A program made the position numbers and the translations under genes. From NCBI GenBank assembly GCA_026417735.1, contig JAOACR010000009.1, positions 1 through 64,000 on the forward strand: 64,000 bases of DNA, in the 5' to 3' direction. Of the stretch, positions 37,076-47,862 are shown one piece after another (the stretch's first letter is position 1; the number at the start of each line of letters is the position of its first letter). This DNA comes from Kiritimatiellia bacterium (GTDB taxonomy: Bacteria; Verrucomicrobiota; Kiritimatiellia; PWTM01). The notes under the pieces are model-generated. The model was not told the DNA's origin. It did no database searches and was given only the letters and a program-made list of their open reading frames with translations.

Positions 37076-37528
37076 ATGCGCTGCCCGAAGTGCGGCGAGG
37101 ACGACGACAAGGTGGTGGACAGCCGCTCCGCGCGCGGCGGCGTCGCGATTCGGCGGCGACGAGTCTGCAACGTATGCGGCCACCGTTTTACCACGTACGA
37201 GGAGATCGCGAAGACCGCGCTACGGGTCATCAAACGGGATGGGCGCCACGAACCCCTCGACCGGCAGAAGATGTTGACCGGTGTGCTGAAAGCCTGTGAG
37301 AAACGGCCCATTGCGGTGGCCGAAATCGAGGCGCTGGTGGACGCGGTGATCTCGGAGATCGAGGCCACGTACGACCGCGAGGTGCCCAGTGTGGAGATCG
37401 GTCGGCGGATCATGTCCCGGCTCGAGAAGTTGGACGAGGTCGCTTACGTGCGGTTCGCGTCGGTGTACCGCCGGTTCCGCCACGTGACGCAGTTCGTGAG
37501 CGAGGTTGAGGGTCTGATGGGGAGATAG
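37076..37528 (+). CDS. nrdR: transcriptional repressor NrdR
   Basis: Zinc-ribbon and ATP-cone repressor of ribonucleotide reductase genes. The 150-residue length is standard. The zinc ribbon is MRCPKCGEDDDKVVDSR with the second pair in RVCNVCGHRFTTYE. The ATP-cone starts at VIKRDGRHEPLDRQKMLTGV and continues through VEIGRRIMSRLEKLDEVAYV. GGAGG stands five bases before ATG. No NrdR box was found in its own promoter, and no nrd gene lies in the window. Four bases separate it from the next gene. Confidence 0.97.
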   Translation: MRCPKCGEDDDKVVDSRSARGGVAIRRRRVCNVCGHRFTTYEEIAKTALRVIKRDGRHEPLDRQKMLTGVLKACEKRPIAVAEIEALVDAVISEIEATYDREVPSVEIGRRIMSRLEKLDEVAYVRFASVYRRFRHVTQFVSEVEGLMGR

Positions 37529-37532
37529 CGGA

Positions 37533-38108
37533 ATGGTCGCGCGGGCGGAGGCGGGCGCCGCGCTGCAGCAGCCCGGCACGGAGTTGGGGATTCGTTGTTT
37601 TGTCGCCGAGGTCTGGCCGGGCGAAACGGTGACTGACCGTGATCTGCGCCGGCTCGCGGCGCTGGCGGGGTTGAGCGGAGAAACGGAGGAGCCCCCCGAC
37701 GCTGCGGAGGCAGCCGAGCGCAGCCGGATCGAGTGTGCGCTGCGGGTCGCGCGGATGAGCGGGCATGCCGAGCTGCGACGTTGGGCGTGGCGCGGCTGGC
37801 TGCGGCCGGCGGCCGCCGCACGGCCGGGACAGCCCGCATGGTCGCTGGCCGTTGCGCCGCTGCTGTCGGAGCCGCTGGAGCTGTGGCTGGCGCCGCGGGT
37901 GGAGCGAATTGCAGACGCGTTGGCGGAGCTCTGGCCAGCGGGGGACCAGCCGGTGCTGGTGCTGCGCGAGTGGCCCGCATGGTTGCGGGGAGAGCGAAAC
38001 CGCCGGCGCGCCGCCGCTGTGCGATGGCGTCTGGCGACCGCGCTGGAACGGCGTGCCGCCGCGCGGGGATGGGCGGGCGCCATTGAGGTGCTGGTGGCGG
38101 CGGAATGA
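37533..38108 (+). CDS. hypothetical protein between nrdR and recD2
   Basis: A 191-residue protein that I do not recognise. It is rich in Ala, Arg, Trp and Leu. Visible segments are LGIRCFVAEVWPGETVTDRD, CALRVARMSGHAELRRWAWR and QPVLVLREWPAWLRGERNRR. No signal peptide or membrane span is evident. The codon pattern is as GC-rich at third positions as its neighbours. It lies 4 bases after nrdR and overlaps recD2 by 4 bases, so it is a genuine member of this operon and its job may relate to DNA metabolism. Confidence 0.65.
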   Translation: MVARAEAGAALQQPGTELGIRCFVAEVWPGETVTDRDLRRLAALAGLSGETEEPPDAAEAAERSRIECALRVARMSGHAELRRWAWRGWLRPAAAARPGQPAWSLAVAPLLSEPLELWLAPRVERIADALAELWPAGDQPVLVLREWPAWLRGERNRRRAAAVRWRLATALERRAAARGWAGAIEVLVAAE

Positions 38109-40327
38109 ACCGCCCCTCGTCCTCCCCGTCGGGCGAGGCCGCAGAGGCGGACACCCTCGCCGGCGTCGTTGAGCGGGTCACCTATCACAACGACGACACG
38201 GGGTATTCCGTGATCCAGGTGCGCGCGCGGGGCCACCGGGGCGAGGTCGCGGTGGTGGGCACGGTCCCCGACGTCAATCCGGGTGAGTGGATCGAGGCGC
38301 GCGGCCGATGGGAGATGCACCCCAAACACGGCCGGCAGTTCGTCGCCGAGGAACTTCGGTTGGTGCCGCCGGACACACCGCAGGGGATCGAGCGGTTTCT
38401 CGGCTCCGGACTGATTCACGGCATCGGGCCGGTGTACGCGCGGCGGCTCGTCGAGCGGTTTGGCCGCGACGTATTTGACGTGATCGAGCGGCAGTCGGCG
38501 CGGCTGCTCGAAGTGGAAGGCATTGGGCCGACTCGGCGCGACCGCATTCGCGCCGCCTGGGCAGAACAGAAGTCCGTGCGCGCGATTATGACGTTTCTGT
38601 TCAGCCACGGCGTCAGCCCGGCGCGTGCGTTTCGCATCTACAAGCAGTACGGCGACCGCGCGATCGACGTGATCCGGATGGACCCCTACTGTCTGGCCCG
38701 CGACATCCGCGGCATCGGGTTCCCCGGCGCGGACCGAATTGCGCAACAGCTCGGCGTCGCGCGCGACTCGATCCTGCGGGCGAAGGCGGGACTCACCCAC
38801 GTCCTGCAGGAGCTCACCGCTGAGGGACACTGCGGCTGGCCGCGGGAGCCGCTGATTGCACAGACCGCCAAGATGCTGGCGATCGAGCCGGGGCGGGTCG
38901 CGGAGGCGCTCGATCAGTGTCTGGCGGAGGGACAGCTGGTGGAGCGCACCGCGCCGGGGAGTGTGCCGGTCACGCTGTTGCCATGGCTGGACGCCGACGA
39001 GCGCACCGTCGCGACGCGGGTGCTCGGTCTGTTGCGCGGGGCCCATCCGCTGCCCGCCGCCTCGGTTGACGACTTGACCGCCTGGATCGAGCCGCGCATG
39101 GGACTGCGGTTGGCTCCGGCCCAGCGCGAGGCGATCGCCGCCGCGGCGACCTCGAAGGTGATGGTGCTCACCGGTGGGCCCGGCGTCGGTAAGACGACGC
39201 TCGTTCGGGCGGTCGTGGCGCTCGCGCGCGCGCAGCGGTTGCGCGTCGCCCTCTGCGCCCCGACCGGCCGTGCCGCACAACGGCTCGCGGAAAGCACCGG
39301 TGCCACCGCGATGACGATTCACCGCCTGCTGGATTTCGATCCCGCGGCCGGCGGGTTTCGGCACGGGCCGGCGCACCCTCTGCGCTGCGACTGGCTGGTG
39401 GTGGACGAGTGCAGCATGCTCGACGTCACGCTCGCCGCGCAGTTGCTCCGCGCAGTTCCCCCCCATGCGGCGCTGCTGCTGGTCGGCGATGCGGACCAGC
39501 TGCCCTCCGTCGGTCCGGGCATGGTGCTGCGCGATCTGATCGACTCCGGAGTGGTGCCGGTACAACGGCTCTCGGTGGTGTTTCGCCAGGCCGCGCGCAG
39601 TCACATCGTCGAAAACGCGCATCGCATCCGCGACGGGAAGATGCCGCTGGTGCCGGAGGTCGCGCCGCGCGAAACGACGGACTTCTACTTCGTGAAGGCG
39701 GAGGATCCCGACGAAATCCGCCAGCTGGTGGTGCGGCTGGTCCGCGAGCGGATCCCGCGCCGGTTCCGGCTCGATCCGGTGCTCGACGTGCAGGTCCTCA
39801 CGCCGATGCAGCGCGGCGAGCTCGGCGCGCGCCAGCTGAATGCGCTGCTGCAGTCGGTGCTGAACCCGACGGGGCCGGCGGTTGAGCGGTTTGGCCAGCG
39901 GTTCCGTGTTGGCGACAAGGTGATCCAGCTCGATAACGACTACGAAAAGCATGTGTTCAACGGTGACATCGGGCGATTGATCGAGCTGCGGCCGGACACG
40001 CGCGAGCTGAAGGTGCGGTTCGACGACGGTCGCGTGGTGACCTACCACGAACTGGAGCTGGACAGCCTGGCTCCCGCCTACGCGCTGACGATTCACAAGA
40101 GCCAGGGCAGCGAGTACCCGGCGGTGGTAGTGCCGCTCCACACTCAGCACTACGTGATGCTGCAGCGGAATCTGCTCTACACCGCAGTCACTCGCGGCCG
40201 GCGGCTTGTCGTGCTGGTCGGCAGCCCGCGTGCGCTGGCGATCGCGGTCCGCCGCACCGAAACTCACCGGCGCGTGACGCTCCTAAAGGAGTGGCTGGTG
40301 CACGGGCCGCCCGGCGGGGAGCTCTGA
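38105..40327 (+). CDS. recD2: RecD2-type SF1B DNA helicase
   Basis: A 740-residue 5-prime to 3-prime helicase. The N-terminal OB-like region (GVVERVTYHNDDTGYSVIQV) and tandem helix-hairpin-helix motifs (LIHGIGPVYARRLVERFG, VEGIGPTRRDRI) are typical of RecD2 and absent from RecBCD RecD. The motor has Walker A TGGPGVGKTTLVRAVV, motif Ia CAPTGRAAQRLAEST, motif II VVDECSMLD, motif III LLVGDADQLPSVGPG, and the C-terminal ALTIHKSQGSEYPAVVV and NLLYTAVTRGRRLVVLVG. RecB and RecC are not seen nearby. Likely roles are repair and replication-fork processing. Confidence 0.96.
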   Translation: MNRPSSSPSGEAAEADTLAGVVERVTYHNDDTGYSVIQVRARGHRGEVAVVGTVPDVNPGEWIEARGRWEMHPKHGRQFVAEELRLVPPDTPQGIERFLGSGLIHGIGPVYARRLVERFGRDVFDVIERQSARLLEVEGIGPTRRDRIRAAWAEQKSVRAIMTFLFSHGVSPARAFRIYKQYGDRAIDVIRMDPYCLARDIRGIGFPGADRIAQQLGVARDSILRAKAGLTHVLQELTAEGHCGWPREPLIAQTAKMLAIEPGRVAEALDQCLAEGQLVERTAPGSVPVTLLPWLDADERTVATRVLGLLRGAHPLPAASVDDLTAWIEPRMGLRLAPAQREAIAAAATSKVMVLTGGPGVGKTTLVRAVVALARAQRLRVALCAPTGRAAQRLAESTGATAMTIHRLLDFDPAAGGFRHGPAHPLRCDWLVVDECSMLDVTLAAQLLRAVPPHAALLLVGDADQLPSVGPGMVLRDLIDSGVVPVQRLSVVFRQAARSHIVENAHRIRDGKMPLVPEVAPRETTDFYFVKAEDPDEIRQLVVRLVRERIPRRFRLDPVLDVQVLTPMQRGELGARQLNALLQSVLNPTGPAVERFGQRFRVGDKVIQLDNDYEKHVFNGDIGRLIELRPDTRELKVRFDDGRVVTYHELELDSLAPAYALTIHKSQGSEYPAVVVPLHTQHYVMLQRNLLYTAVTRGRRLVVLVGSPRALAIAVRRTETHRRVTLLKEWLVHGPPGGEL

Positions 40328-40389: not shown

Positions 40390-41202
40390 ATGATTGCGGT
40401 GCGCCAGCGACAACGGCCGACGATCGAACTTGAGCGCTACGAGGCCAAATACCTGGTCGACCCCGCGCGGCTGCCTGAGATTCGAGAGTTCATTGCGCCG
40501 TTTTGTGAGCCGGATCACCACGCGGCGGGTGCACTGCCGGAGTATGTGGTGACGACGTTGCAGCTCGACACACCGGACCTGGCGCTCTACCGTGCGAAGG
40601 AGCACGAGGCGCTCGCGCGCTTCAAACTTCGGATTCGCACCTACGGGCTGGACCGTCGCTGCCCGGTGTTTTTAGAAATCAAGCGGAAGATCAAGGGCGT
40701 CATCGTGAAGAGCCGCGCGACGATTCCGGTGGAGCTCTGGGGTAGCGATTTGGTCACCTCGCCCGGCCGATGGGTGCCGTTTCGTACCGCGCAGGAGGAG
40801 ATGAACTATCTCAATTTTGTGCGGCTGGTGCGGGAGATCGGCGCACGGCCGGTGGTGCTCCTCCGCTACCACCGCGAGGCGTATCTCGGCCGCAATGACC
40901 GGTATGCGCGCCTCACGTTTGACCGTCGGCTATGTTACCATCCGACGCGCGAGTGGACACTCTGGCCGGAGCGGGCACGCTGGTACGCGCTGGACTCGGC
41001 GACCTTGTTGGGGCGGCCCCGCTCGATGGTGATCCTGGAGCTGAAAACGTTCAGCGATGCTCCGTTGTGGATGGTGGACCTGACCGAGCGGTTCGATCTG
41101 CAGCGGATCGGATTCTCGAAGTATTTTGCCGCGGTGCGGACCGAGTCGCTGTTTCGTGGCGCGATGTACTCGGACGCATCGGAGAACTGCACCATCTGGT
41201 GA
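40390..41202 (+). CDS. VTC-domain protein (polyphosphate polymerase-like)
   Basis: A 270-residue protein of the VTC domain, a triphosphate-tunnel fold known in yeast Vtc4 for making polyphosphate from ATP. Tunnel-lining motifs include LERYEAKYLV, ARFKLRIRTYG, VFLEIKRKIKGVIVKSRATI, LRYHREAYLG, RLTFDRRLCY and VILELKTFSDAPLWM. All basic and acidic positions expected on the tunnel strands appear present. No membrane span. The next two genes (DUF4956 and an adaptor) form an operon with it. Bacterial VTC-DUF4956 pairs are widespread, and their product is not established, so polyphosphate synthesis is inference. Confidence 0.88.
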   Translation: MIAVRQRQRPTIELERYEAKYLVDPARLPEIREFIAPFCEPDHHAAGALPEYVVTTLQLDTPDLALYRAKEHEALARFKLRIRTYGLDRRCPVFLEIKRKIKGVIVKSRATIPVELWGSDLVTSPGRWVPFRTAQEEMNYLNFVRLVREIGARPVVLLRYHREAYLGRNDRYARLTFDRRLCYHPTREWTLWPERARWYALDSATLLGRPRSMVILELKTFSDAPLWMVDLTERFDLQRIGFSKYFAAVRTESLFRGAMYSDASENCTIW

Positions 41203-41226
41203 CGAACACCCGCGGGGACGCACACG

Positions 41227-41910
41227 ATGGATGAACTGATGGAGGTGTTCGGGCCGGCGCGGATGCTCGGCGTCGAGGCGATGGCGCTGGCGCTGCTGAT
41301 CAGCTTCGTGCTGTCGATGGCGGTCGCCTGGGTGTATCGGCGCACCTACCAGTCGCTGGCGTATTCCCGGGCGTTCGTACACACGCTGGTGCTCGGTGCG
41401 GCGGTCTCGTGCATGATGATCATGGCGATCGGCAACAACCTCGCGCGAGGGCTCGGCATTTTGGGCACGCTGGCGATCGTGCGCTTCCGCACACCGATCC
41501 GTGACCCGCGGGACATCATCTTCCTGTTCGCCTCGCTCGCAATCGGGATCGCCTGTGGCGCGGCGGTGTTTGCGGTCGCGGTGGTCGGCACGCTGTTCTT
41601 CTGCGCGATCGCGCTATATCTGCACTGGTCCCCGTTCGCGTCCCGGCGCGAGTACGAGGGGCTGCTACGGTTCCTGCTGCCGCCTCACAGCGATACGAGC
41701 CAGCTCGTGCCGCAGGTGCTCAGCCGGTTCTGCGAAAGCAGCGTGCTGGTGGCAGTCCGCGAAGCGGCGCAGGGTGATGCGATCGAATACTCCTACCAGA
41801 TCCGGCTGTCGGATCCGTCCTTCCACGGCGATTTGCTGGAGGAGCTTCACAAGTTGCCCAACATCGCGGAGGTCAGCCTGTTGATGCAGCGCTCGACCGT
41901 GGAGATCTGA
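41227..41910 (+). CDS. DUF4956 membrane protein
   Basis: A 227-residue inner-membrane protein with about four spans (MALALLISFVLSMAVAWVY, LVLGAAVSCMMIMAIGNNLA, IIFLFASLAIGIACGAAVFA, VVGTLFFCAIALYLHW) and a cytosolic C-terminal domain of about 90 residues. ILGTLAIVRFRTPIRDPRD is the DUF4956 hallmark. The C-terminal part (SYQIRLSDPSFHGDLLEELH) looks ACT-like in length and could sense a ligand. It starts 24 bases after the VTC gene and ends 2 bases before the adaptor gene. DUF4956 and VTC genes regularly occur together; the membrane partner may translocate or anchor the polymer. Confidence 0.85.
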   Translation: MDELMEVFGPARMLGVEAMALALLISFVLSMAVAWVYRRTYQSLAYSRAFVHTLVLGAAVSCMMIMAIGNNLARGLGILGTLAIVRFRTPIRDPRDIIFLFASLAIGIACGAAVFAVAVVGTLFFCAIALYLHWSPFASRREYEGLLRFLLPPHSDTSQLVPQVLSRFCESSVLVAVREAAQGDAIEYSYQIRLSDPSFHGDLLEELHKLPNIAEVSLLMQRSTVEI

Positions 41911-41912
41911 GC

Positions 41913-43130
41913 ATGGTCACCCGCCGTCAGCGCCTGCCCCGACATCCGCGCGTGATCTGGAGCCGGCTGAAGTACAAGTGGCCGTTGCTGGTCTGGCTGG
42001 CCGCGATCTGGGGGTGTTTGGTGCTGTATCGCTTCGGCGTGCGCACCATCCGGATTCCGGGTGTGGTGGAGGCGCTGCGCGAGGAGGACGCACCGGTCGA
42101 GAGCGCACGGCTGGTCGCGGTCCACGTTGCGCCGGGCGATCGGGTGGTGCCCGGCCAGGTGCTCGCGGTGTTCGACAGTTCCCTGGCGGACGCGGAGCTG
42201 GCGGTGGAGCGGCTGCAGGCTGAGCGGCAGTTCAAGGATGCGATCCAGGCAATCGCGGAACGCCGGCGCGAGCTGCGGCTGCGGGAGGCCTCCGAGCGGC
42301 GACGCCTGGAGGTTCTGGACGCAGAGCTCGCACGGGTGCAGTCGTTGATCGCCGCTAGCGTGGAGGACGCCGCCCGGCTGGCGTATCTGCGCGCGGAGCG
42401 CGAGGCGATCGCGCAGACGCTGGCGCTCTACCCAGCCGAGCTGGCCGAACTCGAGCGGGAGGAGGCCGAGGCGCGCCAGCGATGGGAGGAGGCGCGCCGA
42501 TGGATGGAGGCGGGGGAGGGTGCGAGCTCCAGCACACCCCCAGCGGGCATGGAGGCCTATGCGGCGGCACTGTCGGTCGCGCGCGCGCGGCGGGAGAACT
42601 TCATCCTCCGCGCCCGTCATACCGGCATCGTCACCCGCGTCTGGTTTCAGCCGGGTGACGTGGTGCCCGCCGGCACGCCGACGATCACGTTGCTGATTGA
42701 GAACCGCCAGCGGGTGACCGGTTTCCTCAGTGAATACGTGACGCGGGAAGTCCGCGAGGGCATGGAGGCGTTCGTCGAGCCTGCGCACGGAGGTCTCGGC
42801 TCGCGGCTGACGCCCGCCCGCATCGTCACGGTAAGCCCCGACATCACCTGGCTGCCGACCCGCGTCAGCCCGATCCGCAACCAAACCATTCGCGGCCGCC
42901 GCATCGAGGTGAAGCTCTCGGAACCGATCGCGGCCGTGCCCGGCGAAGCGGTGAACATCTATGTCGGCCGACCCTGGTGGAGCGAAGCGTTCGAGCGCTT
43001 CGTGCCGGAGCGATGGAAGGCGGAGATCCGCCGCCGCCGGGGCGCGGAGCCATCAGAGACCTCCGCAGCCGGTGAACGGCTCATTTCCGGCGACGGAACG
43101 CTGCCCCCCACCTCGACGCCGGCAAGCTAG
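41913..43130 (+). CDS. HlyD/MFP-family periplasmic adaptor-like protein
   Basis: A 405-residue membrane-anchored adaptor. One span (LLVWLAAIWGCLVLYRFGV) follows a basic N-terminus. The first lipoyl half is VAVHVAPGDRVVPGQVLAVF. A coiled-coil hairpin (residues about 90-195) is rich in Arg, Glu and Ala. The second lipoyl half is IVTRVWFQPGDVVPAGTPTI, and a beta-barrel region follows to TIRGRRIEVKLSEPI. This is the layout of type I secretion and efflux adaptors. No ABC or RND pump is adjacent, so in this operon it may link the DUF4956 membrane protein to the envelope. The C-terminal 40 residues are low-complexity. Confidence 0.85.
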   Translation: MVTRRQRLPRHPRVIWSRLKYKWPLLVWLAAIWGCLVLYRFGVRTIRIPGVVEALREEDAPVESARLVAVHVAPGDRVVPGQVLAVFDSSLADAELAVERLQAERQFKDAIQAIAERRRELRLREASERRRLEVLDAELARVQSLIAASVEDAARLAYLRAEREAIAQTLALYPAELAELEREEAEARQRWEEARRWMEAGEGASSSTPPAGMEAYAAALSVARARRENFILRARHTGIVTRVWFQPGDVVPAGTPTITLLIENRQRVTGFLSEYVTREVREGMEAFVEPAHGGLGSRLTPARIVTVSPDITWLPTRVSPIRNQTIRGRRIEVKLSEPIAAVPGEAVNIYVGRPWWSEAFERFVPERWKAEIRRRRGAEPSETSAAGERLISGDGTLPPTSTPAS

Positions 43131-43137
43131 CTGCCCT

Positions 43138-43815
43138 TCAGCGGCCGCCCGCCGGAGGCGGTGCCAGCCGCGAAAGCGCGCCCCGCGTCAGATCGTCCAG
43201 CGTCGCCGCCGCGCGTTCCTTGCGGATCCAGGTCGGCACCGAATCCCGATATGTGTCCATCTGCAGCAGCCGGAGCGCCTCGACCAGCTCATAGTAGGCC
43301 AGGATCACCCGGCTCCGCAGGTCCGCCTCCGCGGTTTGCCGGTCCAAGCGGACCCGCTCGGCTTCGATCCGCGCGCGATGCGCGTCAATCTCCTCCGGCC
43401 GGAACACGCGCAGCGAGAAATCCCACACCAGTCCCACCTCCCAGGCGTTCAGCCATTCCGGCTCGTCGCCGATGCCGTAGCTGTCGAGACCGTCCACCGG
43501 CCGCATCACAAAACCGTACCGGCGCAGCCCCTGTTCCGCCATCCCGTAACGGACTTCGAGACGCGGCACCCATGCGGCCCGCCGCATGCGCCGGCGCCAG
43601 TGGGATTCATCGGTCGTCTCCACTTCCGCGTTGGTCACCGTGGCGAGGAAGACCTCGACGGGCGGCAGGTTCGTCAGCGCCAGCCAGGCGTAGCGTTGGT
43701 CCGGCCGCATCCCGCCCGCACGTGCCGGCGGTGAGGAAGTGGAGTTCGCAGCGCACACGGTTGCCGCAACCCCCAGCGAGAACGCAACCCATGTTCGTCT
43801 GCACGGCTGGTTCAT
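43138..43815 (-). CDS. half-length TolC-like outer-membrane protein
   Basis: A 225-residue exported protein with a signal peptide (WVAFSLGVAATVCA). The mature part has WVPRLEVRYGMAEQGLRRYG, LNAWEVGLVWDFSLRVF, then a long helix EEIDAHRARIEAERVRLDRQ and TAEADLRSRVILAYYELVEA. These echo one beta-hairpin plus one helix pair of an outer-membrane efflux protein, whose full form has two such repeats in about 450 residues. It could be a natural single-repeat protein or a shortened gene. GGAGG five bases before MNQPCRR fixes the start. It ends 7 bases from the adaptor gene, tail to tail, so the two are not one transcript. Confidence 0.65.
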   Translation of the reverse strand: MNQPCRRTWVAFSLGVAATVCAANSTSSPPARAGGMRPDQRYAWLALTNLPPVEVFLATVTNAEVETTDESHWRRRMRRAAWVPRLEVRYGMAEQGLRRYGFVMRPVDGLDSYGIGDEPEWLNAWEVGLVWDFSLRVFRPEEIDAHRARIEAERVRLDRQTAEADLRSRVILAYYELVEALRLLQMDTYRDSVPTWIRKERAAATLDDLTRGALSRLAPPPAGGR

Positions 43816-43915: not shown

Positions 43916-45742
43916 ATGAGCGCGTGGCTGTGCGCAGTGGCGCTGGGCGCGGCGACCGGCGGCATCGACGCGGTGCGACTGCAGATCGAGCGGGCTGCAC
44001 CGCATCCCCGGCTGCTGTGGCCCGCCGGCGGTGACGCGGCACTGCGCGCCCGGCTCGGCGCCGACGCGCGGCTCCGCCGTAGCTGGTCCGCCATTTCGAA
44101 CGCAGCGGAGCGCATGCTCTCCGAACAGCCGGTGCGCTACCAGAAACAGGGGCGTCGCCTGTTGCACCGCTCCCGCGAGGCGCTGCACCGCGTGTTGCAC
44201 CTGTCCATGTGCGCGCGCCTCACCGGCGACGACCGCTATGCGCGCCGCGCGATGGCGGAGATGGCCGCCGCAGCGGGGATGCCCGACTGGAATCCCTCCC
44301 ACTTCCTTGACACCGCGGAGATGACGCTCGCACTGGCGATCGGGTACGACTGGTTACACGACCATCTGCCGGCATCGGAGCTGCAGAGCGTCCGCGCGGC
44401 GATCGAACGTCACGGGTTGGCGCCCTATCTGGATGCGCCGCGCGCGCACGGATGGGAACGGGGGCGAAACAACTGGACGCAGGTGTGCCACGCGGGAATG
44501 GTCGCCGGCGCGCTCGCGCTGCTCGAACACGACCGCGACCGCGCCGCACAGGTTGTGGAGCGCGCGCTGGCGGGCCTCCCCAACGCGATGCGAGTGTATG
44601 AACCAGACGGCAACTACCCGGAGGGTCCCGGCTACTGGATCTACGGCACCACCTTCAACGTGATCTTGATCGCGATGCTCGAGTCCGCGCTGGGGACCGA
44701 TTTCGGACTGAGCGCGCGGCCGGGGTTCCTAAACGCGGCCGATTACCTGCTCCACACCCGCGCCCCGAGCGGGCTGCTGTACAACTACGCGGACTGCGCG
44801 GAGCGAGACGCAGGGTTTGTGCCCGCGGTTCTGTGGTTTGCCGCACGCACCCAGCGGCCGGAACTGCTGTGGTGGGCCGATCGCGACTGGCCCGCCGCGA
44901 TCGAACATTTCGCCCGCGGCCGGCCGGGCCAGGACCGGCTGTTCGGCGTCGCCCTCCTTTGGGCGGACCCCGCGCTGCGCGGCACCGTGCCCGCCGCGCG
45001 AGCGTGGTACGGCCGCGGCGAGAATCCCCTTGCCATCTACCGCGCCTCGTGGACCGACCCGGATGCGCTCTACCTCGCTCTGAAGGGCGGCACGCCGAGC
45101 GCCAGCCACGCGCACATGGACATCGGCTCGTTCGTGCTGGAGGCCGGCGGCGTTCGGTGGTCGGTCGATCCTGGCGCCCAGGACTATCACCAGCTCGAAC
45201 GACGGGGTTTCGGGCTGTGGGACAGTCGCCAGGGGGGCGACCGGTGGAAGCTCTTCCGGTACCACACCCGGGGCCACAGCACCCTCGTCGTCAACGGCGC
45301 CGAACAGCGTGTCGAGAGCCAGTCGCCGATCACCTCCTACCAGGCCCGCCCCGACGGCATCACTGCGGTGGTCGAAATGTCCGATGCCTATCGCGACCAC
45401 CTTCGCGCGGCGCGACGCCGCTTCACGGTGCGGAACAACCGCGAGGTGGAAATCGCCGACGAACTGGTCGGCGGCGACCGGCCGGCCACGGTGCGATGGG
45501 GGCTGGTCACGCGTGCCGAGCTCGAGCCGGGTGGTGTGTTGATGCAACGCGGTCGCCGGCTCCGCATCACGGTGATCTCACCGGAGCGCACGCAGCTTGA
45601 GCGTTGGCCCGCCGAGCGGCCGGAGTCGGAATACGACGAGCCGAACCCCGGTCTTGGAGTTGTCGGTTTCATCGCCACCGTCGGCGTGGGCGTGACCTCG
45701 CGATGGAGCGTCGTGCTCAGCTACGAACCTCCGCCGCGCTGA
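43916..45742 (+). CDS. heparinase II/III-family polysaccharide lyase-like protein
   Basis: A 608-residue protein with an N-terminal alpha/alpha toroid and a C-terminal beta-sandwich. Markers are PHPRLLWPAGGDAALRARLG, ALAIGYDWLHDHLPASELQ, RGRNNWTQVCHAGMVAGALA (active-site Asn/His region), EPDGNYPEGPGYWIYGTTFN (Tyr), and the sandwich motif ASHAHMDIGSFVLEAGGVRW (zinc-site His). The tail has TRGHSTLVVNGAEQ and RRRFTVRNNREVEIADELVG. A short hydrophobic start (WLCAVALGAATGG) may be a weak signal peptide. Uronate-containing polysaccharide is the likely substrate. It is followed by a separate sixA promoter. Confidence 0.88.
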   Translation: MSAWLCAVALGAATGGIDAVRLQIERAAPHPRLLWPAGGDAALRARLGADARLRRSWSAISNAAERMLSEQPVRYQKQGRRLLHRSREALHRVLHLSMCARLTGDDRYARRAMAEMAAAAGMPDWNPSHFLDTAEMTLALAIGYDWLHDHLPASELQSVRAAIERHGLAPYLDAPRAHGWERGRNNWTQVCHAGMVAGALALLEHDRDRAAQVVERALAGLPNAMRVYEPDGNYPEGPGYWIYGTTFNVILIAMLESALGTDFGLSARPGFLNAADYLLHTRAPSGLLYNYADCAERDAGFVPAVLWFAARTQRPELLWWADRDWPAAIEHFARGRPGQDRLFGVALLWADPALRGTVPAARAWYGRGENPLAIYRASWTDPDALYLALKGGTPSASHAHMDIGSFVLEAGGVRWSVDPGAQDYHQLERRGFGLWDSRQGGDRWKLFRYHTRGHSTLVVNGAEQRVESQSPITSYQARPDGITAVVEMSDAYRDHLRAARRRFTVRNNREVEIADELVGGDRPATVRWGLVTRAELEPGGVLMQRGRRLRITVISPERTQLERWPAERPESEYDEPNPGLGVVGFIATVGVGVTSRWSVVLSYEPPPR

Positions 45743-45839: not shown

Positions 45840-46331
45840 ATGCGGATCGTGTTCATGCGGCACGGAATTGCGGTGGATGGCGCCGCGGCGGCATCGGATG
45901 AACTTCGCCCGCTGACCGAGGAGGGACGCGAGCGGGTGCGGAAGGTGGCCCGTGGTCTTCGCACGCTCGATTGTCGCCCCCGGATCATTGTCAGCAGCCC
46001 GTTGGTCAGGGCTCGCGAGACCGCGGAGATCGTTGCCGAGCTGCTGGCACCTAAGGTAGAGGTGCAGGAGCTCGACTCTCTGCGGCCGGGCGGCAACTTC
46101 GCCGAGTTCATGAGCTGGGTGGAGCAGCAGGACGCGGAGGAGATTCTCGCGGTCGGGCACATGCCGGACATCGCGGAGTTCGCGCAACGATGTCTGACCG
46201 GGCGGGTGTTGTTCTCGATGACGTTCAAGAAAGCGGCGGCCTGTCTGATCGAGTTCGACGGGGAGCCGGCGGCGGGTCGCGGATGCCTGGAGTGGCTGAT
46301 CCAGCCGGGGGCACTGCGACAACTGGGCTGA
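45840..46331 (+). CDS. sixA: phosphohistidine phosphatase SixA-like
   Basis: A 163-residue histidine-phosphatase-superfamily enzyme. The catalytic RHG motif is in MRIVFMRHGIAVDG, the Arg and phosphate-pocket residues in IIVSSPLVRARETAEIV, and the second His in ILAVGHMPDIAEFAQR. It removes phosphate from histidine in phosphorelay proteins such as ArcB in E. coli. It is directly followed by a CYTH-CHAD gene 10 bases on, a pairing often seen and linked to polyphosphate handling. A target phosphoprotein is not identifiable. Confidence 0.92.
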   Translation: MRIVFMRHGIAVDGAAAASDELRPLTEEGRERVRKVARGLRTLDCRPRIIVSSPLVRARETAEIVAELLAPKVEVQELDSLRPGGNFAEFMSWVEQQDAEEILAVGHMPDIAEFAQRCLTGRVLFSMTFKKAAACLIEFDGEPAAGRGCLEWLIQPGALRQLG

Positions 46332-46341
46332 GGGACACTGC

Positions 46342-47862
46342 TTGAGCCGCGCGCGACTGGAGCGGGAAGCCAGATTCGCGCTGCCGGATGTCTCCCACCT
46401 GGCGGCCGTCCCCTTGCGCCTTCAGGAACTGGGGGTGCGACTCGGCCGAGCGCGGTCCGTCCTCTATGAAGACGTTTATCTCGACACGCCCGACGCGAGG
46501 CTTTGGCGCGCTGGTGTCGGGTTCCGGGTGCGGCACATGGGGGGCCGCACCGTTGCAACATTAAAGACCGGCCGGATCGCCGCCGACCTTGCTGAGCGGC
46601 TGGAGTGGTCTGAAACTGTCCGCGAATGGTGCTACCGCCCAGGGCTGGCACCCGTGCCCGGGACGAAGCTGCGGCGAATTCTGCGCGAGGCCGGCCTGGC
46701 GCTTCGCATGAGGCCCCTCGCCCGGCTCACGGTGTCGCGAACCACATGGACCGCGCGGTGGCCGCAGGGGCACACCGTGACGGTGTGCGCCGACGACGTC
46801 TGCGCGCGGGTCGGCGTGCGGCGGGTGCGGTTTGCGGAGGTCGAGATTGAAAGCCCCCCCGACGCCGCGACGGCGGAGCGCGCGATCGAGTCGCTGCGGG
46901 CGCTGACGCCCTGGCGGCCGCTGCGGGTCTCCAAGCTCGAGCGCGCCTGCCGAGCCGCCGGACGCCGACTGCCCGAGCCACCCGCGAAGCGACCGCTAGA
47001 ACTACCGCCCAACGCGACCACCGCAGAAATGGCGCGCCGCGTGCTCGCCGCGTACTGGGCCCACTACCAGTGGAACCGGCCGGGTGCCGCAGCCGGATTC
47101 GACCCGGAGTTCCTGCACGATCTGCGGGTCGCGATCCGGCGAATGCGCGCAACCGCCTCCGCGCTCGAATCAGTTTTGACGCCCTCATTGACCGCGTGGT
47201 TGAAGGACTTGAAGTCGGTCGCACGTGCTGCCGGACGGGTGCGCGATCTCGACATCGTGCTGGCATGGAGCCGGGAGCCCGCAGCGCGAGAGAGTGCACT
47301 CGTCGCGCCGGCCGCGCGAGGGCAAATGACCGCGCTGCTCGCGCGCGAACGTCAGCGGCGGTTGCGGAGGCTGCGGCGATTGCTGCACGACCCCGCACAA
47401 GAGCGATGGAACCGGCGGCTGCCGGCGCTGCTGCAGACGATCCGCAGTGACAGTTCGGAGTGCGCCCGCGCGCTGATTCGCGCACAGGCCAATGCGGCGC
47501 GGAAAGCCGCCCGCGCCGCCGCACGGCGCATCAGTGCGGACACCCCGCTGGAAGAGTTTCACGAGCTCCGAATCCGCTGCAAAACGTTGCGATACCGTTT
47601 GGAACTGCTGCGGCATTTCGGCGATCCGGCGGTGCGAAAGGCGATCAGCCGATTGGCGGGGCTGCAGGATGAACTTGGGCGCCTTCAGGATCTGGCCACC
47701 GTGCGGCACGAGCTGATGGCACTGCGCCCCGCCGCCGGCCATCCGCAGCTCAGCAGTCTGCTGAGGGAGTGGCGGACACTGCTGGATCGCCAGATTGATG
47801 AGCAAAGGCGGCGGGCCTGGAAGCGCCTGCGAAACGTGTGTTGGCGTGAGCTGCGGCCGTAG
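46342..47862 (+). CDS. CYTH and CHAD domain protein (polyphosphate-associated)
   Basis: A 506-residue two-domain protein. The N-terminal CYTH triphosphate-tunnel domain (residues 1-200) starts LEREARFALPDV, an ExExR version of the ExExK signature, then LYEDVYLDTPDARLWRAGVG, FRVRHMGGRTVATLKTGR and a matching second half. The CHAD domain (about 235-500) is Arg/His-rich with DLRVAIRRMRATASAL, DLDIVLAWSREPAARES and FHELRIRCKTLRYRLELLRH; CHAD binds polyphosphate. Start is TTG after GAGGGA. Likely a triphosphatase or polyphosphate-bound regulator; coupled to SixA. Confidence 0.92.
   Translation: MSRARLEREARFALPDVSHLAAVPLRLQELGVRLGRARSVLYEDVYLDTPDARLWRAGVGFRVRHMGGRTVATLKTGRIAADLAERLEWSETVREWCYRPGLAPVPGTKLRRILREAGLALRMRPLARLTVSRTTWTARWPQGHTVTVCADDVCARVGVRRVRFAEVEIESPPDAATAERAIESLRALTPWRPLRVSKLERACRAAGRRLPEPPAKRPLELPPNATTAEMARRVLAAYWAHYQWNRPGAAAGFDPEFLHDLRVAIRRMRATASALESVLTPSLTAWLKDLKSVARAAGRVRDLDIVLAWSREPAARESALVAPAARGQMTALLARERQRRLRRLRRLLHDPAQERWNRRLPALLQTIRSDSSECARALIRAQANAARKAARAAARRISADTPLEEFHELRIRCKTLRYRLELLRHFGDPAVRKAISRLAGLQDELGRLQDLATVRHELMALRPAAGHPQLSSLLREWRTLLDRQIDEQRRRAWKRLRNVCWRELRP

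Follow-up and report, generated by a model that had tools for sequence, protein, structure and literature searches.

A VTC-DUF4956-Adaptor Gene Set in Kiritimatiellia as a Candidate Polyphosphate Export System

A 64,000-nucleotide stretch from a Kiritimatiellia bacterium (assembly GCA_026417735.1, contig JAOACR010000009.1, positions 1 to 64,000; hereafter the window) carries an operon for a VTC-type triphosphate-tunnel polymerase, a DUF4956 integral membrane protein and an EmrA/HlyD-type periplasmic adaptor. A gene for a half-size, single-repeat TolC/OEP-like protein lies tail to tail with the adaptor gene. We propose that these four genes represent, in this lineage, a trans-envelope polyphosphate export system that is widespread among two-membrane bacteria and consists of VTC, DUF4956, an adaptor and an outer-membrane factor, a reading whose chances we put at about even.

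According to this proposal, VTC would polymerise the gamma-phosphates of ATP to polyphosphate in the cytosol, and the growing chain would be passed to DUF4956, whose conserved arginines would give it a basic entrance facing the cytosol. Polymerisation, together with the membrane potential, would drive the chain across the inner membrane during its synthesis. Through an outer-membrane channel, linked to DUF4956 by the adaptor, the chain would then reach the cell surface or the medium. The full-size channel gene that usually accompanies the operon would here have given way to the half-size TolC-like protein encoded on the opposite strand, of which six copies would be needed for the usual 12 strands.

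The polymerase, the membrane protein and the adaptor

The VTC gene (40390..41202, + strand) is the only one in the 3.09 Mb genome, for which a genome search also returned a single DUF4956 match. Its product of 270 amino acids matches PF09359 (E 1.5e-34; 120 bits, cut-off 23), the sole domain found in it; SPX, DUF202 and a transmembrane domain of its own were not detected in this protein. A search of the PDB with the single sequence gave no match, and a profile of 34 VTC relatives matched yeast Vtc4 (E 6.4e-21). Residues K20, R81, R83, E96, K98, K107, R162, E217 and K244 are invariant in 34/34 relatives and R174 is kept in 33/34. Of these, K20, R81, R83, E96 and K98 align to Vtc4 K200, R264, R266, E279 and K281, and K107, R162, R174, E217 and K244 align to Vtc4 K294, R361, R373, E426 and K458 (full-length numbering), while the position of Vtc4 S457 varies among the relatives. 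Besides the equivalents of R264, R266 and E426 (R81, R83 and E217 here), we take the other tunnel positions to be active-site residues. Catalysis is impaired in a Vtc4 R264A/R266A/E426N triple mutant, according to PMC9911596.

This conservation suggests that the VTC protein synthesises polyphosphate. An earlier note on this DNA had envisaged a polymerase, channel, adaptor and outer-membrane duct that could export a phosphate polymer or a modified glycan; the conserved active-site residues favour polyphosphate as the cargo, whereas the half-size TolC-like protein does not hold up as a general duct (see below). The window's own genome also encodes PPK1, which rules out VTC as the cell's only polyphosphate source and makes it unnecessary for merely producing cytosolic polyphosphate; VTC probably has a role beyond cytosolic storage. 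Across the class, PPK1 occurs in 51/67 VTC genomes, a weak association (Fisher p 0.11).

The DUF4956 gene follows after 24 bases (41227..41910, + strand; 227 amino acids; PF16316, E 2.1e-12). An AlphaFold2 (AF2) model of the protein (mean predicted local distance difference test score, pLDDT, 79.5) has helices at residues 16-40, 48-68, 72-86, 94-111 and 115-134, followed by a soluble ferredoxin/ACT-like C-terminal domain from about residue 140. The membrane nature of the 'four-span' protein described in the earlier note is thus retained; its span number was approximate, given five predicted helices and the soluble domain. Arginines R48, R74, R86, R88, R92 and R95 are invariant in 27/27 adaptor-type sequences, and R86 and R88 in 37/37 sequences of a broader set. 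By the positive-inside rule, the R86-R95 loop is predicted to face the cytosol.

No clear solved relative of the membrane part was found, the structure matches being restricted to residues 139-226, which is no proof of a new fold. The C-terminal domain fits that of MgtC (7qa5; Z 9.9, root-mean-square deviation 2.5, 89 residues), and many ACT-like folds match it at a Z equal to or above that of MgtC. Like MgtC proteins, DUF4956 has an ACT-like domain behind its membrane helices, and it gives a match to the MgtC family PF02308 (17.9 bits) that stays under the cut-off of 31.4; its gene neighbours are different. DUF4956 could be a regulatory MgtC-like protein and not a conduit, with polyphosphate leaving by another path or staying inside. 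We consider this improbable: all six arginines located in or close to the membrane helices are invariant, and in the class VTC and DUF4956 are hardly ever found apart.

Two bases further on lies the adaptor gene (41913..43130, + strand; 405 amino acids), whose product has an N-terminal hydrophobic segment. Both the lipoyl and the barrel parts were found, through matches to PF13437 (E 1.5e-4; 22.9 bits, cut-off 22.2) and to PF13533 (below its cut-off). The match to the NCBIfam HlyD model TIGR01843 (3.6e-10) falls far under that model's cut-off, and a profile of 30 adaptor relatives matches EmrA (4tko; E 9.6e-31). The single-repeat gene lies 7 bases beyond. The coordinates and Pfam matches bear out the four genes at the places previously reported and the 24- and 2-base spacing within the operon. 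A scan of nine window proteins from around the operon detected no ABC, RND or MFS transporter and no glycosyltransferase, and CotH was not found among the scanned neighbours.

Recurrence of the gene set in relatives and other phyla

VTC is present in 67/146 genomes of the class and DUF4956 in 67/146; 66 genomes have both, one has VTC without DUF4956 and one has DUF4956 without VTC. Gene neighbourhoods were read in 60 stretches, 56 around VTC matches and four around matches to the half-size TolC-like protein. The VTC places covered are the window's own and 57 of 89; lower-scoring places were left out, so that the neighbourhood counts lean to high-scoring VTC types, a bias to be set beside the counter-evidence given below. 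The 56 VTC genes, the window's included, were labelled by home-made profiles, and 'nearby' means within five genes. Genes were called as the longest open frame; this missed DUF4956 in L117 and L122 as well as VTC in L068 and L104, and L081 has a long gap.

DUF4956 and an adaptor are both found nearby 40/56 class VTC genes, a full-size OEP gene nearby 28/56, a CotH-like protein nearby 15/56 and the half-size TolC-like gene nearby 3/56. An adaptor is present and a recognised OEP absent nearby in 10/56 loci, some of them at contig ends. The full-size OEP gene usually stands directly after the adaptor gene, often with frames that overlap by 4-37 bases (upper bounds, because the longest open reading frame was taken), and the OEP cluster is the only one that recurs at this position. 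Pfam OEP is matched by 23/28 proteins of this full-size cluster, and the cluster profile matches OprJ, SilC and CusC in the PDB.

Co-occurrence of the adaptor and the half-size TolC-like gene with VTC-DUF4956 in relatives had been set beforehand as the test that could refute the grouping, and the adaptor was clearly found to co-occur. The outer-membrane gene gave a divided result: the full-size OEP recurs, whereas the half-size gene itself adjoins the set in a small clade only (three loci), its other family members being solitary or tandem genes remote from VTC, DUF4956 and HlyD. A chance grouping is rejected by the class-wide co-occurrence together with the cross-phylum neighbourhoods described next. 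Separately, several VTC operons of the class have very large proteins of a CotH/lamin-tail-type cluster as neighbours (14 such proteins, from 13 loci; for example L052 782-6112 and L055 2-5761).

For the cross-phylum set, the adaptor-type DUF4956 was the query, and the best 80 of 584 loci in named genomes were grouped by record titles into 51 diderm, 25 monoderm, 2 archaeal and 2 unassigned loci. An HlyD adaptor was found in 37/51 diderm, 0/25 monoderm, 0/2 archaeal and 1/2 unassigned loci, a contrast that is descriptive only because of the adaptor-type query and the choice of the best 80, the loci also being related by descent. VTC and an adaptor occur together in 22 of these 80 loci (21 diderm and one unassigned), among others in records titled Delongbacteria, Spirochaetia, Fibrobacter, Bryobacterales, Sulfopaludibacter, Desulfobacterium, Planctomycetota and Zixibacteriota. 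The gene order varies: Delongbacteria and Fibrobacter metagenome-assembled genomes (MAGs), for example, have DUF4956-HlyD-OEP-VTC, and a Desulfobacterium MAG has HlyD-OEP-VTC-DUF4956.

Several observations weigh against the export proposal. VTC-CotH without an adaptor is the commonest pattern among the best 80 loci (27/80), and VTC-DUF4956 is paired with CotH without an adaptor in most monoderm loci and in some diderm ones, which means that VTC-DUF4956 does not everywhere serve export through the outer membrane. Moreover, 16 Bacteroidota loci (L126-L129, L131-L138, L142, L144, L148 and L151) have DUF4956-HlyD, often with OEP, without an adjacent VTC. In these genomes, VTC is encoded elsewhere in 7 and absent from 9, among them Neolewinella persica DSM 23188, and hence DUF4956, adaptor and channel can stand without VTC. 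PPK1 is present in 8/9 of the VTC-free genomes, where the DUF4956-adaptor-channel set may take polyphosphate made by PPK1, or another cargo.

The CotH loci invite the reading that VTC-DUF4956 moves polyphosphate to the periplasm only, as a store, a chelator or a phosphate donor (for example for secreted CotH-type kinases), and that adaptor and outer-membrane factor serve another cargo or an anchor. The CotH-like proteins near 15 of the 56 class VTC genes, the adaptor-free VTC-CotH loci and the ten class loci with an adaptor and no recognised OEP nearby are consistent with it. Nevertheless, the linkage of adaptor and OEP, with short overlaps, recurs in many close relatives and in several other diderm phyla, and the window's operon has no CotH neighbour. 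We regard confinement to the periplasm as unlikely.

The cargo could also be something other than free polyphosphate, if the tunnel enzyme made or transferred a phosphate-containing group for a glycan or surface polymer that the DUF4956-adaptor-channel set exports or modifies. Such a cargo would be in keeping with the VTC-free DUF4956-HlyD(-OEP) genomes, with the heparinase II/III-like gene that adjoins the window's half-size TolC-like gene, and with the CotH-PPP-DUF4956 genes that adjoin Pel polysaccharide genes in Gram-positives (PMC7112168). The invariance of the Vtc4 R264, R266 and E426 equivalents and of other tunnel positions points the other way, as do the lack of a glycosyltransferase among the nine scanned window proteins and the recurrence of only the OEP cluster after the adaptor. 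Overall, there is little likelihood in our judgement that the cargo is of this kind.

The half-size TolC-like gene

The fourth gene is on the - strand and spans 43138..43815 from an ATG (225 amino acids) or to 43839 from a TTG (233 amino acids). Its match to PF02321 (24 bits, cut-off 22) covers profile positions 30-124 of 187, which amounts to one partial repeat. The 225-residue, one-repeat TolC-like protein of the earlier note thus stands as to its length from the ATG, its single repeat and its tail-to-tail position, and its TolC match is barely over the threshold. The AF2 model (mean pLDDT 72) is a single unit composed of a helix, two strands and a 41-residue helix. The ten best Foldseek rows are all TolC, ST50 or OprM, yet weak (E 0.02-0.14), and VIA-align scores against TolC (Z 4.4-4.7) are no higher than those of unrelated helical proteins. 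An OEP match at E 0.1 or better is seen in just 4/17 members of the family. Kinship with TolC is accordingly probable, though insecure.

The family was found in 9/146 class genomes by a single-sequence search and in 11/387 phylum genomes by a profile search, one of them just at E 8.9e-4; the two genome samples differ. Intact members of about 214-394 amino acids occur in several genomes, and the gene as a remnant of a disrupted full-size TolC is consequently not favoured. Only in three loci, those of the window, G046 and G089, does the gene adjoin the VTC operon. In nine other stretches that carry it, no VTC, DUF4956 or HlyD profile match was found. These distributions lead us to reject the half-size protein as a regular component of the system class-wide. 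Elsewhere, remote from VTC and adaptor genes, half-size TolC-like genes form tandem pairs in G024, G057, G036 and G081 (L186, L187, L189 and L195), and two such side-by-side genes could make a mixed channel.

It is also quite conceivable, at slightly below even chances, that VTC, DUF4956 and adaptor form a real system to which the half-size protein is unrelated, with the adaptor docking on a full-size outer-membrane factor of the genome. This alternative is compatible with the export mechanism and concerns the fourth gene only. The evidence against a part for the half-size protein is varied. Its gene is convergent to the operon and so lies outside the operon transcript, seven other open frames in the genome have paired OEP matches and are full-size, and profile comparison with full-size OEPs is weak (prob 11-12%). 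Most of the family is far from any adaptor. In the same genus, the gene is on a separate contig in G004 and was not found in G085, a genome that is 68% complete. On the other hand, G046 (50% identity) and G089, which belongs to another family, share the tail-to-tail adjacency with the window. In a tree of VTC and DUF4956, the operons of these three appear to form a group together with those of G004 and G085 from the same genus.

A further member of the genus, G022 (L051 8738-12952), keeps the order NrdR-RecD2-half-size TolC-like gene and lacks VTC, DUF4956 and the adaptor; there the TolC-like match stops at residue 157 of 233. A single deletion could explain this arrangement, which supports an old origin of the window's gene order in the genus, yet not a functional tie.

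Three further features of the window were noted near these genes. A heparinase II/III-like gene (43916-45742) is divergent from the half-size TolC-like gene, 76 bases off, and no homologue of it was found in the relatives' stretches read. Beyond it, at 45840-47862, a gene for a SixA-type phosphohistidine phosphatase is followed 10 bases on by a gene for a CYTH-CHAD protein. CHAD proteins are tied to polyphosphate, so that these two genes, 2-3 kb from the operon, may form another pair related to this polymer. On the other side of the operon, an open frame of 1015 amino acids (37220-40267, - strand) runs antisense to RecD2 and is most likely a shadow frame of high-GC coding DNA.

Relation to known systems and meaning

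The window's VTC protein belongs by profile to the polymerase family of the yeast VTC complex and shares its active-site positions. According to PMC9911596, the yeast complex sends polyphosphate through a basic transmembrane channel in a step coupled to its synthesis, and the channel's basic residues matter for translocation; coupled synthesis and membrane passage are proposed here by analogy. The two systems differ in that the bacterial protein consists of the VTC domain only, without SPX or DUF202, that a distinct protein, from a different family, is the candidate conduit, and that two membranes would have to be crossed instead of one.

Neighbouring genes for a polyphosphate polymerase and DUF4956 are also a feature of the cotH-PPP-DUF4956 genes at Gram-positive Pel loci (PMC7112168), and VTC-domain genes are followed by CotH at a C. 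perfringens locus (PMC2879425). In both cases, CotH takes the place of adaptor and outer-membrane factor, in a monoderm envelope, and the accessible parts of these two papers show no export function for either locus. With EmrAB-TolC and other tripartite exporters, the gene set has in common the EmrA/HlyD-type adaptor and, in relatives, the OprJ/CusC/SilC-like channels. The inner-membrane families of tripartite exporters named in PMC8277102 are ABC, RND and MFS, and no such transporter stands alongside the window's operon. In addition, the window's outer-membrane gene has one partial repeat and not the two of an OEP, although many relatives have the full-size form.

No description of a VTC, DUF4956 and adaptor/TolC set was found in the literature searched, whose coverage excludes preprints and most subscription journals, and within the same coverage, searches on extracellular polyphosphate export, periplasmic or secreted polyphosphate, CotH with a polyphosphate polymerase, and half-size TolC likewise revealed no such system. 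The VTC-DUF4956 pairing and tripartite exporters are each already known; it is their combination that was not found there. Polymerase-driven export, if proved, would be categorically new. In its boldest form, which we advance only tentatively, the proposal is of a polymerase-driven tripartite machine, in which a tunnel-fold polymerase would replace the transporter ATPase and extrude an inorganic polymer continuously through DUF4956, adaptor and outer channel. This would be a dedicated means of polyphosphate secretion in many diderm phyla, and the six half-size TolC subunits supposed here would resemble a pre-duplication state.

If true, a route for polyphosphate across two membranes would recast this polymer in bacteria from a cytosolic store to a surface or shared material, and tripartite exporters would gain another type of inner-membrane engine. 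If the half-size TolC-like protein forms a channel, it would bear on the origin of the duplicated TolC. DUF4956, a family named for its unknown function, gains a testable role, and the recurring gene set makes the proposal testable in laboratory strains.

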